DNA of 64,000 bases from Jiangella aurantiaca (GTDB lineage Bacteria > Actinomycetota > Actinomycetes > Jiangellales > Jiangellaceae), in assembly GCF_004349105.1 (NCBI RefSeq), contig NZ_SMLB01000011.1:1-64000 (forward strand). Direction: 5' to 3'. Positions 4,639 through 63,600 of the stretch are shown here, in pieces. Under the pieces are notes generated by a model. That model saw nothing but the letters and a program-made list of their open reading frames with translations, was not told where the DNA came from and ran no database searches. Position numbers and translations under genes: made by a program. How positions within the stretch are numbered: the first letter of the stretch is position 1; each line of letters opens with the position of its first letter.

Positions 4639-4651
4639 GAGGTCACCGTAC

Positions 4652-23913: not shown

Positions 23914-26900
23914 ATGACTCAGCCCGGACCGCGCCCCCTTCGGCGCGCACGCCGACTTCCGGCCGCCCTCGCCGGCGTCGTCGGGATGCTGGCCGGCCTG
24001 CTGACCGTCGTCGGCGGGCAGGCCGCCCGAGCACCCGAAGCCGCCGCTCATCCGGGCCACGGCGGCTACTCGATCCTGGTGTTCTCGAAGACGGCCGCGT
24101 TCCGGCACGACTCGATACCGGCCGGCATCGCCGCGATCCAGCAACTGGCCGCCGAGCACGAGTTCTCCGTCACGGCCACCGAGGACGCCGCCGCGTTCAC
24201 CGACGAGAACCTCGCCCAGTACGACGCGGTCGTCTGGCTCTCCACGACCGGCGACGTGCTGAACGACGAACAGCAGGCGGCCTTCGAACGCTACATCCAG
24301 GCAGGCGGCGGATACGCCGGCATCCACGCCGCCTCGGACACCGAGTACGACTGGCCGTGGTACGGCGAGCTGGTCGGCGCCTACTTCAAGGGCCACCCGC
24401 GCAACCAGGACGCCACCATCCAGGTCGCCGACCGCACGCACCCGTCCACCGCCCACCTCCCGGCGCAGTGGCAGCGGTTCGACGAGTGGTACAGCTTCCG
24501 CACCAACCCGCGCGGCGACGTGCACGTGCTGGCCAGCCTGGACGAGGGCACGTACGACCCCGAGGCGAACCCGATGGGCCTGGACCACCCGATCGCCTGG
24601 TGCCACACCTACGACGGCGGCCGCGCCTGGTACACAGCGGGCGGCCACACCATCGAGAGCTACGCCGAGCCGGCGTTCCTGCAGCACCTGCTCGGCGGCA
24701 TCGAGACCGTGGCCGGTGTGACGGCGGCCGACTGCGGCGGCACCGTCTGGGACACCTTCGACAAGGTCCCGCTCGACACCGGCACCGCGAACCCGATGGA
24801 GCTCGACGTCGCGGCGGACGGGCGGGTGTTCTACATCGAGCGGGCCGGCGAGGTCCGCATGATCGACCCCGCGACCAGCCAGACCACCGTCGTCGGGACG
24901 CTCGACGTGTACACACAGCGCGAGGATGGGCTGCTGGGCATCGCGCTCGACCCTGACTTCGTCACCAACGGCTGGATCTACCTCTACTACTCGCCGGACG
25001 GGACCGAAGCCGAGCAGCGGTTGTCGCGGCTCACGCTCACCGGCACGACGCTCGACCTCGCGAGCGAGATGCAGCTGCTCGAGGTGCCGGTCGACCGGGC
25101 GGTCTCCGGCCACGCCGGTGGCTCCCTGAGCTTCGATGCCAGCGGCAACCTCTACCTCGCCACCGGCGACGACACCAACCCGTTCGAGTCCGACGGGTAC
25201 GCGCCGATCGACGAGCGGCCGGGCCGGGCCTCCTACGACGCCCAGCGCAGCTCCGCCAACACCAACGACCTGCGCGGCAAGGTGCTGCGCATCCACCCCG
25301 AGCCCGACGGGACCTACACGATCCCAGACGGCAACCTGTTCGCGCCCGGCACAGCACAGACCCGCCCCGAGATCTACGCGATGGGCTTCCGCAACCCGTT
25401 CCGCATCGAGGTCGACGGCGCGACCGGGACGCTGCTCGTCGGCGACTACGGTCCCGACGCCCCGCAGGCCGACCCCGACCGCGGCACCGAGGGCCAGGTC
25501 GAATGGAACCGCATCACCGCCGCCGGCAACTACGGCTGGCCGTACTGCCACGGCGCCGGCCCGTTCCGCGACTGGGACTTCGCGACGCAGACCGCGGGCC
25601 CGCCGTTCGACTGCGCGAACCCGGTCAACGACTCGCCGAACAACACGGGCCTCACCCAGCTCCCGCCGGTCACGGCGCCTGACGTCTACTACGGCCGCTC
25701 CGAGACCGGCACCAACTGGCCGGAAATGGGCACCGGCGGCGGCGCGATGGCCGGCCCCGTCTACCGCTACGACGAGGCGCTGGACTCCGACGTCAAGTGG
25801 CCCGCCTACTACGACGGTGCCGCGCTGTTCTACGAGTGGACGAACACCGAGGACGGCTACGTGCGGCCGTTCGGCAACGACGTCTGGGAGTTCCGCCTCG
25901 ACGAGGCCGGTGCCGGCGGCATCCACGACATCAACCCGCTGCTCAGCAGCATGCAGTTCCTGCGCCCGATGGACATGACGTTCGGGCCCGACGGCGCGCT
26001 GTACCTGATCGAGTGGGGGACGGGGTTCGGCGGCAACAACGCCGACTCCGGCGTCTACCGGATCGAGTACGCGGGCAGCGGCACCCGGCCGGTCGCGCAG
26101 GCCGCCGCCGACCCGACGTCGGGTGCGCTGCCGCTGACCGTGCAGTTCAGCAGCGAGGGCTCCGGCCACCCGAGCGGCCTGCCGGTCACGTACCACTGGG
26201 CGTTCGGCGACGGCGCGGAGTCGACCGACCCGAACCCCACCCACACGTACACCGTCGCCGGCCAGTACTCGGCCCGGCTGACGGTGACGGCGGAGGACGG
26301 CGCGACCCGCTCGCAGACCGTCCAGATCACCGCCGGCAACACCGCGCCGGAGGTGACGCTCGACCCACCCCTCGACGGCGGCTTCTTCGACTTCGGCGAC
26401 GACCTCGCCTACGGCATCGACGTCACCGATGCCGAGGACGGCTCGACCGCCGACGGCACCATCGCCTGTGACGGCGTCGAGCTGCAGGTGCTCTTCGGGC
26501 ACGCCGGCCACGCGCACCCCGTCGAGGTGCTCCCTGGCTGCGAGGGCACCGTCGCCACCAGCACCGACGCCGGGCACCCGGCCGGCGAGGACCTGTTCTG
26601 GGTGCTCGAGGCCCGCTACACCGACCGGGGCGGCGACGGCGTCGGCTCGCTCACGGGCCGCGACCTGCACGTCCTGCAGCCCAAGCTGAAAGAGGCCGAG
26701 CACTACCAGTCGCAGAGCGGCGTCCAGCTGGAGGCGACCAGCGACCCGCGCGGCGGCCGGCAGAACATCGGCTTCATCGACGACGGCGACCACATCTCCT
26801 TCGACCCGATGAACTTGAGTGGAATCGACGGCATCACCTATCGCTTCGCGTCGGGCGGCAGCGGCGGCCGGATCGAGGTCCGCGCCGGCGCGCCCGACGG

Positions 26901-28257
26901 CCCGCTGGTCTCCGACAGCGGCTTCATCCCGCCGACCGGCGGCTGGCAGTCGTGGACCGACGTCACGGTCCCGATCGAGGACCCCGGCGGCACCCGCGAG
27001 CTGTTCTTCGTGTTCCGGCACGAGCCCGGCTCGACCGGCCTGTTCAACCTCAACTACCTGAAGTTCCGCGGCAAGGGCGTGTCCGTGGACGCGCGGCCGG
27101 AGATCTGGTCGGTCGAGGCGACGCCGCCGTCCGGCGAGCTGCCGTACGAGGTGACGCTGAGCGCCGAGGCCACCGACCCGGAGGGCCGGGAGCTCACCTA
27201 CACCTGGGACTTCGGCGACGGCACCACGGCGACCGGCGCGCAGGTCACACACACCTACGAGCTGTCCGGCGTCTACCGGCCGACGGTCACCGTCACCGAC
27301 GCCGCCGGGTCGGTGGCGCACGACTCCGTCCGCGTCGAGGCCGTGCCGGAGGCGTCGCCGCCGATCGAGTGCGCCGACCCGGGCAGCGACCCGCCGCCCG
27401 ACGACGAGTTCGACGGCGACCGGCTGGACGGGTGCCGCTGGGACGCCGTCGTCCGGCCCGACCTCAACCGGTTCCGCGTCGAGGGCGGCCAGCTGAAGAT
27501 CGACACCACCCCGACCAACCTGTTCGACCAGCACAACAACGCACCGAACCTGATGCTGCAGACGATGCCGGCCGGCGACTGGGTGGTCGAGACGAAGGTG
27601 TCCGGTCCGGTCTGCGAACGCTGGCAGCAGGGCGGCCTGCTGGTCTACGAGAGCGACCAGACGTTCCTCAAGCTCGACTACGTCGGCACGTCGCCGGTCG
27701 GTGAGCCGTGCGCCCGCAAGATCGAGATGCGGCACGAGATCGACGACATCTTCCAGCCCGCGTTCCCCGAGGTCACCCTGCCCGACGGCGTCACCACCTG
27801 GTGGCTGCGGCTGGAGAAGACCGGCTCGACCTACACCGGCTACTACAGCTCCGACGGCGTCGACTTCCAGCAGGTGGGCGTCATCGAGAACGACCGGCTG
27901 GCGACCGCCGACGTCGGCGTCTACGCGTTCGGGCAGGAGCAGACCCAGGCCACGACCGTCGCGTTCGACCACTTCCACGTGCTGGAGTCCGAGCCGCCGG
28001 ACGCCTGCCCGGACTCCGACGAGAGCCCGACAGTCGTCATCCGCGACGTGGACTCCGGCGTGACGAACGACGAGCGCGAGGACGGCTGCACCGTCGAGGA
28101 CCTCATCGAGGACGAGATCGAGTGGCCGAGCCAGGGCCGGTTCATGCTGCACGTCCGGAGCGTGACCCAGCACCTCGTGCACGACGGCGTGCTCACCCGT
28201 GCCGAGCGCGACGCCATCATCGCCGCCGCCGGCCGCAGCGCGCCCGGCGGCCGCTGA
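23914..28257 (+). CDS. Secreted ThuA / PQQ-type sugar dehydrogenase multidomain protein 1
   Basis: 1447 residues, exported (signal to ~45). Domains: ThuA-like Rossmann domain ~52-265 (ILVFSKTAAFRHDSI, GGGYAGIHAASDTEYDW); glucose/sorbosone dehydrogenase propeller ~285-725 (EDGLLGIALDPDF, SGHAGGSLSFDASGNLYLAT, RPEIYAMGFRNPFR); PKD ~728-812; an unnamed segment ~815-925 with FGHAGHAHP; CBM6 ~926-1058 (KEAEHYQSQSGVQLE, DDGDHISFD); PKD ~1060-1144; DUF1349/beta-xylosidase-C2-like sandwich ~1160-1360; and a Cys-containing C-terminal helical module ~1370-1447 (WPSQGRFMLHVRSVTQHLV). Family knowledge suggests sugar oxidation with a quinone cofactor and carbohydrate binding. The substrate is unknown. AGAGGAA precedes the ATG. 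LacI-type operators lie upstream, and a glycoamylase-like gene follows 31 bp downstream. Paralogues are at 54523 and 60679. Confidence 0.9.
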   Translation: MTQPGPRPLRRARRLPAALAGVVGMLAGLLTVVGGQAARAPEAAAHPGHGGYSILVFSKTAAFRHDSIPAGIAAIQQLAAEHEFSVTATEDAAAFTDENLAQYDAVVWLSTTGDVLNDEQQAAFERYIQAGGGYAGIHAASDTEYDWPWYGELVGAYFKGHPRNQDATIQVADRTHPSTAHLPAQWQRFDEWYSFRTNPRGDVHVLASLDEGTYDPEANPMGLDHPIAWCHTYDGGRAWYTAGGHTIESYAEPAFLQHLLGGIETVAGVTAADCGGTVWDTFDKVPLDTGTANPMELDVAADGRVFYIERAGEVRMIDPATSQTTVVGTLDVYTQREDGLLGIALDPDFVTNGWIYLYYSPDGTEAEQRLSRLTLTGTTLDLASEMQLLEVPVDRAVSGHAGGSLSFDASGNLYLATGDDTNPFESDGYAPIDERPGRASYDAQRSSANTNDLRGKVLRIHPEPDGTYTIPDGNLFAPGTAQTRPEIYAMGFRNPFRIEVDGATGTLLVGDYGPDAPQADPDRGTEGQVEWNRITAAGNYGWPYCHGAGPFRDWDFATQTAGPPFDCANPVNDSPNNTGLTQLPPVTAPDVYYGRSETGTNWPEMGTGGGAMAGPVYRYDEALDSDVKWPAYYDGAALFYEWTNTEDGYVRPFGNDVWEFRLDEAGAGGIHDINPLLSSMQFLRPMDMTFGPDGALYLIEWGTGFGGNNADSGVYRIEYAGSGTRPVAQAAADPTSGALPLTVQFSSEGSGHPSGLPVTYHWAFGDGAESTDPNPTHTYTVAGQYSARLTVTAEDGATRSQTVQITAGNTAPEVTLDPPLDGGFFDFGDDLAYGIDVTDAEDGSTADGTIACDGVELQVLFGHAGHAHPVEVLPGCEGTVATSTDAGHPAGEDLFWVLEARYTDRGGDGVGSLTGRDLHVLQPKLKEAEHYQSQSGVQLEATSDPRGGRQNIGFIDDGDHISFDPMNLSGIDGITYRFASGGSGGRIEVRAGAPDGPLVSDSGFIPPTGGWQSWTDVTVPIEDPGGTRELFFVFRHEPGSTGLFNLNYLKFRGKGVSVDARPEIWSVEATPPSGELPYEVTLSAEATDPEGRELTYTWDFGDGTTATGAQVTHTYELSGVYRPTVTVTDAAGSVAHDSVRVEAVPEASPPIECADPGSDPPPDDEFDGDRLDGCRWDAVVRPDLNRFRVEGGQLKIDTTPTNLFDQHNNAPNLMLQTMPAGDWVVETKVSGPVCERWQQGGLLVYESDQTFLKLDYVGTSPVGEPCARKIEMRHEIDDIFQPAFPEVTLPDGVTTWWLRLEKTGSTYTGYYSSDGVDFQQVGVIENDRLATADVGVYAFGQEQTQATTVAFDHFHVLESEPPDACPDSDESPTVVIRDVDSGVTNDEREDGCTVEDLIEDEIEWPSQGRFMLHVRSVTQHLVHDGVLTRAERDAIIAAAGRSAPGGR

Positions 28258-54522: not shown

Positions 54523-57500
54523 ATGTTCGTGGCTCTACGCCAGCGATGGGCCCGGCTCCTGGCCGTGCCGCTCGCCGCGTTGTTAGCGATACCACTACTC
54601 ACCGCGTTACCGTCGTCGGCTCACGAAGGTGAGCACGGCGAGGCGGCACACGTCCTCATCTTCACCAAGACCACCCAGTTCCGGCACACCGAGGCGATCA
54701 CGCAGGGTGTGCCCGTGCTGCAGGCGGCGTTCGAGGCCGCCGGCATCACCTCCGAGCACACCGAGGACTCCTCGATATTCAACGACGAGGACCTCGCCCA
54801 CTTCGACGCGCTGGTCATGTTCCAGGCGTCCGGCGACCCGTGGACGGCCGAGGAGAAGGCCGCCATGGAGCGCTACCAGCAGGCCGGCGGCGGCATCGTC
54901 GCCATCCACAACGCCGCGGACATGCGCGGCAACTACGCCTGGTGGGACACCCTCATCGGGTCCCTGATGCCCGGCCACGCGGCCACCGGCACCAGCCCGG
55001 GCCTGCCCGGCACGGTCCGAGTCGAGGACCAGACCCACCCGTCGACGACGCACCTGCCGCAGCGATGGCAGCGCGCGGACGAGTGGTACAACTTCTCGAC
55101 CAACGTCCGCGGCACGGCGCACGTGCTGGCGACCATGGACGAGACGACGTACAACCCGGGCAGCAACGCCATGGGCTACGACCACCCGATCTCGTGGTGC
55201 AAGCCGTACGACGGCGGCCGCGCCTGGGTGACGGCGATGGGCCACTTCGGTGCCCACTACACGCAGGAGGCGGACTTCGTCCAGCACATCGTCGGCGGTG
55301 TGCAGTGGGCCGCCGGCGTCGCCGAGGGCGACTGCGGCGGCACGGTGTGGGAGCAGTTCGAGCGGGTGCCGCTGGACCAGAACACCAGCGCGCCGTTCGC
55401 GATGGACGTCGCACCGGACGGCCGCGTCTTCTTCACCGAGCTGGTCCGCGGGGAGATCCGCGTCTATGACCCGGCCACCCAGACCACGTCGACCGCCATC
55501 ACCATCCCGGTCTACTCCGGTGGCGAGGACGGCCTGCTGGGCATCGCACTGCACCCGGACTTCGAGCAGAACGGGCACCTGTACGTCTACCACTCGAAGG
55601 CCAGCGCCAACGACTCCGACCCGGCGAACTTCATCAGCACGCTGTCGCGGTTCACCGTCGGCCCGAACTCGCAGATCGACCCCGCGTCGGAGGAGGTCAT
55701 CCTCGAGGTGCCGGCCCGCCGGCTCCCGGACGAGCCCGGCCACACCGGCGGCGGCCTGGAGTTCGACGCGAACGGCAACTTGTACCTCGGCGTCGGCGAC
55801 GACGTGAACCCGCACTCCGAGCCGTCGGGCGGCTACGCACCGCTGTCCGAACGCGACGGCACCTTCCACGACGCCCGTGCGACGTCGGCGAACACCAACG
55901 ACCTGCGCGGCAAGGTGCTGCGCATCACCCCGCAGCCGGACGGCGGCTACACGATCCCCGAGGGCAACATGTTCCCGCCGGGGACCGAGGGCACCCGCCC
56001 GGAGATCTACGCGATGGGCTTCCGCAACCCGTTCCGGTTCTCCATCGACCCGGAGACCGGCGCGCTCGGCGTCGCCGACTACGCCCCGGACAACAGCCAG
56101 GCGAACGCGAACCGCGGCCCGGCCGGCATGGTCGAGTGGAACCTCATCAAGGAGCCCGGCTTCTACGGCTGGCCGCTGTGCATCGGCCCGAACGAGCCGT
56201 ACCGCGACGTCGACTACCGCACCAACCCGGTGACGGTCGGCGACTACTTCGACTGCGCCAACCCGGTCAACGACTCCGTCCGCAACACTGGCCTGACGCA
56301 GCTGCCGCCGGCTCAGCAGCCGGCGATGTGGTACGGCTATCAGACCTCGTCGGTCCCGGCGGTCATCCCGGCCGGCGGCGGGCTGGCGCCGATGGGCGGC
56401 CCGTTCTACGACTTCGACCCGGCGCTGGAGTCGGACACGAAGTTCCCGGAGTACTACGACGGCAAGCCGTTCTTCTACGAGTGGTCCAAGAACAAGATGT
56501 ACTCCATCGACCTCAACGAGCAGTCGGGTGCTTTGGAGAAGATCAACCCGTTCCTGCCCGGTGAGCAGTGGATGGCGCCGATCGACTCCACGTTCGGTCC
56601 CGACGGCTCGCTGTACGTGCTCGACTGGGGCGGCGGCTTCGGCCGCGACAACCCGAACTCCGGGCTGTACCGCGTCGACTACGTGTCCGGCTCGCGCTCG
56701 CCGGTGGCGCACGCGACGGCGACGCCCGACTCCGGCCACGCACCGCTGACCGTCCAGCTGGACGGCTCTGGCAGCAGCGATCCGGAGAACGAGGCGCTCA
56801 CCTACGCGTGGGACTTCACCGACGACGGCACCGTCGACTCCACCGAGCCCGAGGCGTCGTTCACCTACACCGAGAACGGCGTCTACAACGCCCGCCTCAC
56901 GGTGACCGACCCGCACGGCAAGACCGGCACGACCACCGTGCCGATCACCGTCGGCAACACCCGCCCGGAGGTGGACTTCGACCTGCCGCCGGACGGCGCG
57001 TTCTTCGACTTCGGCGACACCGTCGAGTGGAACGTCGAGGTCACCGACGTCGAGGACACCGAGATCGCCGACGAGGACGTCGTCATCCAGCCGGCCCTCG
57101 GCCACGACGACCACCCGCACCCGGCCGAACCGCTCAGTGGGCGGACCGGCTCGCTGGAGACGGCGCTCGGCGGCGGGCACAGCGAGGACATGAATGTCTT
57201 CTACATCCTCAACGCCCGCTACACCGACGGCGGCGCCGGCGGCGGCATCCCGCCGCTGACCGGCGAGGACACGTCGCTGCTGTTCCCGCGGCAGCGCGAG
57301 GCCGAGTTCTACGACGACGCCGAGGGGATCACCACCGGCTCGTCGCGTGACATCGAGGGGCACGGCACCGCGATCGCCGGCCAGAACGGCGCCTGGGCGT
57401 CGTTCGACCCGGTCAACCTCCTGAACGTCGACGCGCTCGTCCTGCGGGCGTCGTCGGTGGCCGGCGGCCCGATCGAGCTGCGCCGCGACGCACCCGACGG

Positions 57501-60678: not shown

Positions 60679-63600
60679 GTGCCACACCATTCGAGATCCC
60701 GACGACCGCTGTTCAGATCCGTGGCCACCGCCGCGGCGGGAGCGCTGCTGCTGCCGCTCGGCGCCACCGCGACGACAGCCGCAGCTGACCCCCTCATCGA
60801 ACCCATGCACGAGGGCGTCCACGTTCTCGTGTTCAGCAAGACCGCCGGCTTCCGGCACGACTCCATCCCGACCGGCATCGCCACCATCCAGGAGCTCGGC
60901 GCCGAACGCGGCTGGGAGGTCACCGCGACGGAGGACGCGGCCACCTTCACCCCCGAGAACCTCGCGCAGTACGACGTCGTCGTCTGGCTGTCCACCACCG
61001 GCGACGTCCTGAACGACGAGCAGCAGGCGGCCTTCGAGGCCTACATCGCGGACGGCGGCGGGTACGCCGGCGTGCACGCGGCCGCCGACACCGAGTACGA
61101 CTGGGCCTGGTACGGCGGGCTGGTCGGCGCGTACTTCCAGTCGCACCCGCAGATCCAGCCGGCCACCGTCGTCGTCGAGGACCGCGTCCACCCGTCCACA
61201 CAGCACCTGCCGGACCGGTGGGCGCGCACCGACGAGTGGTACGACTACCGCGCCAACCCGCGCGGCGACGTGCACGTGCTGGCGTCGCTGGACGCCGACA
61301 GCTACACCGGCGACGTCATGGGTGCGGACCACCCCATCGCCTGGTGCCACGACTACGAGGGCGGCCGGTCCTGGTACACCGGCGGCGGGCACACCCAGGC
61401 GTCCTACGCCGAGCCCGAGTTCCGCGAACACCTCGCCGGCGGCATCGAGACCGCCGCCGGAGCGGCCGACGCCGACTGCGGCGCCACCGTCACCGAGAAC
61501 TTCGACCAGGTCACGCTGGCCCGCGGCCCCGAGGAGATGGGCGAGCCGATGGGCGTCGCCGTGCTGCCCGACGGCAGCGCGCTGCACACCTCGCGCGACG
61601 GCCGGGTCTTCTACACCGCGGCGGCCGGCCAGACGACACTGGCGGCCGACGTGCCGGTGTACGACTTCCGCGAGGACGGCATGCAGGGCATCGCCCTGGA
61701 CCCGGACTTCGCGACCAACGGCTGGGTGTACCTCTACTACTCGCCGCCGCTGAACACGCCGCCCGGCGAGGTCGTCCACTCCAGCCTGGACCCGTCGGTC
61801 TGGGAGGCCTACGAGGGCCATAACAATCTGTCGCGCTTCAAGTTCGCCGACGGCGTGCTGGACCTGGCGTCGGAGCAGGTGATCCTGCAGGTGCCGCAGG
61901 ACCGCGGCAACTGCTGCCACCACGGGGGCGAGATCGACTTCGACGCCGACGGCAACCTCTACCTGTCCACGGGCGACGACACCGACCCGTTCGAGTCCAA
62001 CGGGTACGCGCCGATCGACGACCGTCCGACCCGCGCGCCGCAGTTCGACGCCCGCCGCACGTCGGGCAACACCAACGACCTGCGCGGGAAGATCCTGAGG
62101 ATCACCGTTCAGGAGGACGGCGGCTATACCGTCCCGGAGGGCAACCTGTTCGCTCCCGGCGCGGACGGCACCCGGCCGGAGATCTACGCGATGGGCTTCC
62201 GCAACCCCTTCCGCATCAGCGTCGACCAGAAGACCGGCGATGTGTGGGTGGGCGACTACGGCCCGGACTCCGGCGGCCCGAACCAGTACGGCCCCGGCGG
62301 CCAGGTCGAGTTCAACCGGATCACCGAGCCGGGCAACTTCGGCTGGCCGTACTGCACCGGCCGGAACACGCCGGCGGAGACGTACGCCGACCGCGAGTTC
62401 ACCTCGTACTACGGCATCGACCCGAACACCGGCCAGCCGGACCCGAACACCGGCACCAACGACCCGGTGGGTGAGAAGTTCGACTGCGCCAACGGGCCGG
62501 TGAACGACTCCGCGCTGAACACCGGGTTACCGACGGTGCCGCCGGCGCAGCCGGCCTGGCTGCCGTACGACGGCGGCTCGGTGCCCGAGCTCGGCAGCGG
62601 CAGCGAGTCGCCGATGGCCGGCCCGGTCTACCGGTACGACCCCGCGCTGGAGTCCGACACGAAGTTCCCCGAGTACTACGACGGGCAGTTCTTCGCCTAC
62701 GAGTTCGGCCGGCGGTGGATCAAGAACATGTCCGTCGCGTCCGACGGCACGCCACTGCACATCGGCTCCTTCTCGAGCTTCATGCAGAACACCCAGCTGA
62801 TGGACCTGGAGTTCGGCCCCGAGGGCTCGCTGTACGTCCTCGACTACGGCACCGGGTTCTTCAACGGCGACGAGAACTCCGCGCTCTACCGCATCGACTA
62901 CGTCGCCGGCACCCGCTCGCCGTCCGCCGTCGCCACCGCGACGCCGACGTCCGGGCCGGCGCCGCTGACCGTCCAGTTCTCCTCGGCGGGCTCCGACGAC
63001 CCCGACCCGGGCGACGTCCTCAGCTACGCGTGGGACTTCGAGAGCGACGGGACGGTCGACGCCACCGAGCCGGACGCGTCGTTCACGTACACCGCCAACG
63101 GCGAGTACACCGCGACCCTGACGGTCACCGACCAGACCGGCAACGAAGGCGTGGCCACCGCGCACATCGTGGTCGGCAACACCGCGCCGGTCGTCGAGTT
63201 CGAGTCGCCGCCCAACGGCGGCCTGTTCACCTTCGGGCAGGACGTCGCGTTCGAGGTCACTGTCACCGACCCGGACGGGCAACCGGTCGACTGCGCCGAC
63301 GTCGAGGTGACGTTCGCGCTGGGCCACGACCAGCACACCCACGGCGGCGAGAGCGTGACCGGGTGCTCCGGCACCATCTCGACCGGCACCGACGGCTCGC
63401 ACGGCACCGACGACAACATGTTCGGGTTGCTACTGGCCGAGTACACCGACACGCCGCCGACGCCGGACACCGTCCCCGTCACCGGCACCGCCGAGCTCGT
63501 GCTGCAGCCGCGGCACCGCCAGGCCGAGCACTTCACGGCGCAGAACGGCATCCAGGTGGTCAGCCACGGTGGAGCGGAGGGCGGCGCCCGGGTCGGCTAC

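Follow-up and report, generated by a model that had tools for sequence, protein, structure and literature searches.

The three large secreted proteins P0001, P0002 and P0003 of Jiangella aurantiaca, encoded in the window (the whole stretch of DNA analysed, 64,000 nucleotides of contig NZ_SMLB01000011.1), have the motif GHxxHxH in an unnamed segment between their PKD and CBM6 domains. Here it is proposed, with a probability of about 0.65, that this segment forms a separate Ig-like domain which binds a metal and is an accessory of PQQ-type sugar dehydrogenases, with three ligand histidines on a hairpin and a fourth ligand in a loop. The histidines stay constant while the turn between them and their neighbours vary, they are accompanied by a fourth histidine or a carboxylate, and in the one locus without them all four are replaced together; judging from the aligned sequences, this pattern would be best explained by a transition-metal site.

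Domain organization of the host proteins

P0001 (23914..28257, + strand, 1447 aa) has the order ThuA-GSDH-PKD-(His Ig domain)-CBM6-PKD-DUF1349/GH43_C2 from its ORF and Pfam matches, with a signal peptide judged by eye. This includes the glucose/sorbosone dehydrogenase domain GSDH (PF07995, E 2.6e-38) at aa 293-546 (24790..25551), PKD (PF18911) at aa 725-806 (26086..26331), the unnamed Ig-like domain at aa 808-926 (26335..26691) and CBM6 (PF03422, E 3.4e-27) at aa 927-1052 (26692..27069), all on the + strand. In the Ig-like domain, for which no Pfam or NCBIfam family was found at E<=1, the motif GHAGHAH (26497..26517, + strand, aa 862) contains histidines 56, 59 and 61 of the domain, and a fourth conserved histidine, recognised in the sequence alignment, is at domain position 81 (26575..26577, + strand). 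P0002 (54523..60549, + strand, 2008 aa) has the order ThuA-GSDH-PKD-(His Ig domain)-CBM6-Big_7-GH43_C2/DUF1349 (three stretches)-Ig-like repeats-FIMAH, also from ORF and Pfam, and its Ig-like domain (56953..57297, + strand) has GHDDHPH at 57100-57120 (aa 860) and the fourth His at 57178-57180, with no Pfam family over cut-off. P0003 (60577..63999, + strand, ThuA-GSDH-PKD-(His Ig domain)-CBM6) continues past the window, the whole ORF having 1589 aa (L009:577-5346); its Ig-like domain (63175..63519, + strand) has GHDQHTH at 63322-63342 (aa 916) and the fourth His at 63400-63402.

All three proteins have signal-peptide-like N-termini and share the order ThuA, GSDH, PKD, CBM6, the GSDH matches being over the PF07995 cut-off in P0002 (E 3e-30) and P0003 (E 5.3e-36) as in P0001. 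By the Pfam boundaries, PKD ends at aa 806, 810 and 865 and CBM_6 starts at aa 927, 926 and 982 in P0001, P0002 and P0003, respectively, which leaves a gap of 115-120 residues, somewhat longer than the 100 or so of the preliminary description. The presence of GHxxHxH in this gap of the three proteins, as reported there, was borne out by a six-frame scan of the window: three of the five matches are in frame, at 26497, 57100 and 63322, and the other two, at 4641 and 26544, lie in a different + strand frame, outside those of P0001-P0003. The earlier positions were right for P0001 and P0002 and one base off for P0003 (63321). A common start GGxFDFGDD had also been described, which is only loosely shared (GGFFDFGDD, GAFFDFGDT and GGLFTFGQD), and the motif is indeed kept while its surroundings have diverged, the P0002 and P0003 segments being 47% and 41% identical to that of P0001.

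The GSDH domain of P0001-P0003 is of the PQQ glucose/sorbosone dehydrogenase type, as indicated by the PF07995 matches and the propeller fold predicted for P0001. The model of 24748-27078 aligns with 2ism over 330 residues (Z 40.5, rmsd 2.3), and its residues H122, R215 and N216 are invariant in an alignment of 45 rows. The PQQ aldose dehydrogenases 2ism, 3a9g, 3das and 1qbi resemble this domain next to the segment; however, their chains align to model residues 1-444 only, and the His Ig domain, from residue 530, is outside.

Other features of these proteins and their surroundings were also observed. P0003 ends in a 3-keto-disaccharide hydrolase domain (PF06439, DUF1080, E 1.5e-39), a family linked to 3-keto-disaccharide cleavage in the part of the literature covered here (PMC9007349). 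With ThuA, a PQQ-type dehydrogenase and a 3-keto-glycoside hydrolase in one secreted chain, P0003 is possibly a redox deglycosylation enzyme. The C-terminal part of P0002 contains two OmpL47-type repeats and the final FIMAH domain, which is also terminal in the protein at L009:8855-12187. Directly upstream of P0002 (47186-54434) are genes for a Gfo/Idh/MocA oxidoreductase, a sugar-type ABC transporter (ATPase, two permeases and binding protein) and a xylose-isomerase-like TIM barrel, an arrangement that looks like a sugar uptake and oxidation operon. In many proteins of this group, an apparent signal cleavage AxA/H (judged by eye, the slash marking the cut) would leave an N-terminal His, as in AAA/HPGHGG, SSA/HEGEH, AVA/HDNH and AQA/HPIN, an observation made on the N-termini of P0001 and P0002, on the protein at L009:8855 and on many further loci; others have VINPADF instead. 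The putative N-terminal His is reminiscent of N-terminal His metal sites and is a matter separate from the four internal histidines discussed here.

Predicted fold and comparison with known families

The structure prediction proposed in the preliminary description was carried out with AlphaFold2, and the P0001 segment is predicted, with a pLDDT of 88.4, to form a seven-strand Ig-like/PKD-like beta sandwich, with strands at residues 6-10, 23-32, 48-56, 59-67, 70-74, 88-96 and 107-116. The same seven-strand arrangement was obtained for the segment within the longer GSDH-PKD-segment-CBM6 stretch (pLDDT 86.6). The weaker part of the model is the loop of the fourth His, where pLDDT is about 76-80.

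The fold matches found with Foldseek and VIA-align are generic Ig folds. With the P0001 segment model, Foldseek against the PDB gave nothing better than E 1e-3, the top match being 9kvu, a solved B1 Ig domain of the ordinary kind (E 5.5e-3; Z 8.9, rmsd 2.4, 89 residues aligned). Superoxide reductase, the LPMO 4qi8 and the cobalt-bound 'Zcp' 9mhn appear low in the fold-match lists and were given no weight with regard to function; none of the ten papers listed by a literature search for Zcp dealt with that protein. When the P0001 segment was compared with PDB sequences, three capsid-protein sequences were returned (E 0.007-0.07), which were regarded as chance matches, and a profile search with an alignment of 38 members of the domain gave 12 matches, mostly to the start of ordinary Ig/PKD domains and also to a few unrelated chains.

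Among the family models, Big_7 (PF17957) has matches in 25 of the 38 aligned members at E<=1; the first strands of the segment, up to a 'TDxEDG' turn, align with it. The match extends over model positions 1-30 to 1-43 of 70 wherever positions were given, covering the first 30-50 residues of the segment; these matches reach no further than the start of the His hairpin or end ahead of it. Scanned singly, one distant member is over the cut-off (27.0 versus 24.1 bits, model 1-30), P0003 is below it (19.7 bits, model 1-43), and for P0001 and P0002 the Big_7 model gave nothing at E<=1. PKD domains of known structure (4l9d, 6aem) resemble the segment in fold and in the final 'TDSxG' strand, 4l9d aligning over 81 residues with Z 8.3 and rmsd 2.3; however, the His hairpin is not part of the PKD models PF18911 and PF00801, which gave no match over cut-off in the segments scanned singly and no match at E<=1 in the three window segments. 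DUF4625 (PF15418) matches weakly in three of the 38 members (best E 0.0086), one of the matches spanning the HxxHxH stretch (query 35-89), and its best score among the segments scanned singly was 16.6 bits against a cut-off of 27 bits. A search with the DUF4625 family gave no match at E<=1e-5 in 198 genomes, and none in 14 controls either, so absence is not implied; the literature covered here does not mention DUF4625. No NCBIfam model was above cut-off for the segment. The earlier statement that no named family was known for the segment agrees with the library scans, the three segments being below every Pfam-A and NCBIfam cut-off: the fold is known in kind, and the His site is outside these two libraries.

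The LPMOs, with their Ig-like fold, and the Ni-binding DUF4198 proteins are secreted and have a His metal site, and the available account of a DUF4198 protein (PMC12537917) describes three facially capping His nitrogens. According to the same account, both groups use the N-terminal His of the mature protein (PMC12537917), whereas the four histidines of the segment are internal (aa 863-888 of P0001) and its fold match is generic. Kinship with DUF4198 or the LPMOs was rejected, as it was supported by none of the tests made and the histidines are not N-terminal. Superoxide reductase (4bk8) shares the Ig-like fold (Z 7.0, rmsd 3.6, 92 residues aligned), the Z-score being within the noise range. 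Its iron site is rich in histidine, Fe(His)4Cys. Identity with superoxide reductase was likewise rejected: the segment has no invariant Cys, the Cys pair at positions 45 and 69 being absent in 21 of 118 domains, and the family was not among the 23 Pfam families listed.

Copies and conservation of the histidines

With the segment as query, ten copies were detected in its own genome, six of them on the contig of the window at about 26, 57, 63, 71, 74 and 84 kb; six copies within about 60 kb suggest local duplication. The nine other paralogues are 41-53% identical to the P0001 segment, and His 56, 59, 61 and 81 are invariant in all ten. The nearest named loci of another copy of this genome are from five Jiangella species, with 80-96% identity. 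With a profile of the ten paralogues, matches at E<=1e-3 were found in 31 of 296 sampled Actinomycetota genomes, with up to 10 copies per genome. The weaker matches include a second form of the motif, such as FHHADHIHP, RFHDNHTHP or MHHCPANACHEHP followed by APDHEYP. Additionally, tblastn against plasmids found the domain in the archaeon Haloferax larsenii and in Leisingera, Salipiger, Skermanella and Nonomuraea. These five relatives share 22-31% of their residues with the segment of P0001 and have H-x-H in every case, with GHDY in all but Nonomuraea. Three of the plasmid genes are annotated as 'PQQ-dependent sugar dehydrogenase' and one as 'PKD domain-containing protein', all four having GSDH and PKD over the Pfam cut-offs. 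An Ig-like stretch in Gemmatirosa kalamazoonensis plasmid 1 has just the first strands in common, aligning over the first 48 positions, and has no His motif in the part shown; it may be an outgroup.

The 38-member alignment extends to sequences with no more than 21-29% identity to the window segment, and P5, D32, H56, H59, H61 and D97 are invariant in it, whereas no Cys or Met is. Among 118 distinct domains, a count that excludes domain hits of <=20 bits and the Gemmatirosa match, H56, H59 and H61 are present in 118/118 and H81 in 110/118; these three are among only five P0001 positions that are invariant in this set. The set is partly circular, 80 of its loci having been picked with patterns that include LGHDQHGH, and therefore a test blind to the histidines was run.

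In this test, a junction profile covering the end of GSDH and PKD, and stopping before the segment, was searched in a sample of 296 genomes of the phylum; having been built from domain-bearing proteins, it finds their kin. The count covers 69 of the matches listed, those with an E of at most 1.3e-28 whose alignment begins within the first 15 model positions; 60 of these were read downstream, and the other nine are copies of the same genome, all with the motif. H-x(2-8)-H-x-H was found at the right place in 58 of the 60 loci. One of the remaining two (L188, G279:C21:529388-530290) has a frameshift between PKD and the His domain, either real or an assembly error, and carries HHCESGGGCHEH in another frame, which brings the motif to 59/60. 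The other (L192, G270:C116:5101-6054) keeps the domain (QCAAANECERE ... APDTEYP), with both Cys at the turn, and has all four histidines replaced (Q, E, E and T, as read by eye). This joint loss is as predicted for a four-ligand site and, as a single case, is suggestive at the level of sequence; L192 would serve as a natural negative control. A second sample, of the class, had the motif in 27 of 27 further loci, one per genome, read from 97 genomes with a match. The preliminary description had held the histidines to be probably functional, in metal or cofactor contact, and their function is supported by this conservation (38/38, 118/118 and, in the blind test, 59/60), from which binding of a metal may be deduced. 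The same description had not noted the fourth conserved His, the paired Cys, or seven of the ten copies in the genome.

The company of the domain is also constant. The GSDH signature GxRNP is found upstream in 108 of 113 domain-bearing frames, and of the five without it three have <300 residues upstream and two (L017 and L030) do not show the pattern in exact form. A scan of six additional proteins (two from the same genome and four from plasmids) gave GSDH and PKD in 6/6 and ThuA in none. The domain is followed by CBM6 in P0001-P0003 and in two out of three other close relatives that were scanned, the third (710 aa) ending after the domain, and in the distant group a WSDGG stretch often follows. 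The constant companion of the domain is therefore GSDH-PKD, and not ThuA or CBM6, which vary. A search with the GSDH family was swamped by short enzymes and was set aside.

Anatomy of the His site and proposed function

In the AlphaFold2 models of the lone segment and of the longer stretch, the strand 48-56 ends at His 56 and the strand 59-67 begins at His 59. The two-residue turn between them would make these histidines cross-strand neighbours, with His 61 on the same face as His 59, and from this hairpin geometry His 56, 59 and 61 should point from one face of the predicted beta-hairpin. His 81 is placed in the loop that precedes strand 88-96. The customary order of strands in Ig domains would put the hairpin at the pole opposite PKD, on the CBM6 side.

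The length of the turn varies in the 60 junction loci: it has two residues in 38, is longer with Cys beside each flanking His (HC..CHxH) in 15, and is otherwise longer in five, the longer turns thus having the two Cys at their ends in 15 of 20. This variation is as expected, in the aligned loci, if the spacing between the histidines flanking the turn is important. A further Cys pair, at positions 45 and 69, is complete in 97 and wholly absent in 21 of the 118 domains, P0002 being without it, a pattern of co-presence as for a putative disulfide. Of the 58 junction loci with the motif, 48 have the fourth His; in ten it is missing and the same loop contains Glu or Asp, in eight of them as PE(D/G); the 48 comes from reading the loops, a pattern count of 49/60 having included a spurious locus (L151).

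In the proposed mechanism, the Ig-like domain would bind one divalent transition metal ion, with Zn or Cu as the likeliest. His 56, 59 and 61, around the hairpin turn, would supply three ligands from one face, and His 81, or the Glu or Asp of the same loop where it is absent, would complete the site. The metal-clamped module may then keep the dehydrogenase in a set position with respect to the domain that follows, which is CBM6 here. A comparable use of HxH is found in carbonic anhydrase, which holds zinc by HxH on one strand and a His across. If a metal is bound, the odds of a structural or docking role would be about even; an electron relay would be a more doubtful role, and a catalytic one improbable, slightly more so than some role of another kind.

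Alternative explanations

Some observations count against metal binding: some members have no fourth His, the joint loss was seen once, the best fold match is an ordinary Ig domain, and the conserved histidines could instead bind sugar or form a fixed interface. An ordinary Ig or Big_7 spacer, with the histidines as a hydrogen-bonded or interface cluster free of metal, would agree with the predicted Ig-like fold and with the Big_7 matches in most of the aligned members, one of them over cut-off, and is nevertheless considered rather unlikely, because three of the five positions invariant in 118 sequences are His, the turn changes in length while the His flanking it do not change, and all four are lost together in L192. 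The preliminary description had named an ordinary Ig or PKD variant with unconserved histidines as the outcome that would contradict it; the Ig-like fold and the Big_7-like first strands correspond to that outcome, but the histidines do not, H56, H59 and H61 being invariant in 38/38. A redox centre of copper or iron that takes electrons from the PQQH2 of GSDH and passes them on is unlikely as well, although it would suit the constant GSDH-PKD partner with GxRNP upstream, and Ig-like folds do host redox metals, as in superoxide reductase 4bk8, with the noise-range score given above. Also, fused cytochromes are thought to relay electrons in other GSDH-type proteins, and cytochrome domains fused beside PQQ dehydrogenases (T. 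turnerae and AA12), as well as other GSDH proteins with fused cytochrome c, are discussed in the covered part of PMC12055684. Against a redox centre are the lack of an invariant Cys or Met, the fourth ligand position that switches between His and carboxylate, and the expected location of the site at the pole away from PKD.

The His cluster could also be a catalytic or substrate site, splitting for example the 3-keto-glycosides that the dehydrogenase produces, and would then account for the orphan deglycosylation by a ThuA-GSDH-PKD-CBM6 protein. A literature search on this multidomain architecture found one biochemical study (PMC4562250), in whose available text M768_06655 of Cellulosimicrobium cellulans F16 has the Pfam order ThuA-GSDH-PKD-CBM_6-PKD. 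P0001 shares this order, a likeness of Pfam architecture (PMC4562250), and the five Pfam matches given there for M768_06655 leave the PKD-CBM6 gap unnamed. As described in that text, the purified subunit, which is of about 118 kDa and has lost about 500 residues at its C-terminus, cleaves xylose off a taxane and has beta-xylosidase/beta-glucosidase activity that corresponds to no known GH family, and the authors could not assign its catalytic domain (PMC4562250). The activity of this protein, kept even without those C-terminal residues, the 3-keto-disaccharide hydrolase domain of P0003 and the sugar enzymes (Gfo/Idh/MocA and TIM-barrel) encoded just upstream of P0002 would favour a catalytic site. 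However, ThuA, GSDH or the 3-keto-hydrolase are more obvious candidates for the activity, and the domain is also found in GSDH-PKD proteins with no ThuA match (two of the same genome and four archaeal or alphaproteobacterial), and a catalytic site is thus regarded as very improbable. With regard to the metal, the same text states that the isolated subunit was activated by none of the metals tested, calcium activating the whole complex (PMC4562250). This counts mildly against metal binding, although an ion that is already tightly bound would hardly be revealed by activation with added metals.

Implications for secreted sugar dehydrogenases

The segment is a clear-cut candidate to become a Pfam family of its own. 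More speculatively, and with considerable doubt, the site could be an undescribed mononuclear His3-4 centre on an Ig hairpin, common to archaea and bacteria and a functional part of PQQ sugar dehydrogenases, serving as an electron outlet or as the catalytic centre that the orphan deglycosylating ThuA-GSDH-PKD-CBM6 enzymes otherwise seem to lack. If the Ig-like accessory domain does bind a metal as proposed here, it would add a metal site to secreted sugar oxidases that form a large group, present in 31/296 of the sampled Actinomycetota genomes.
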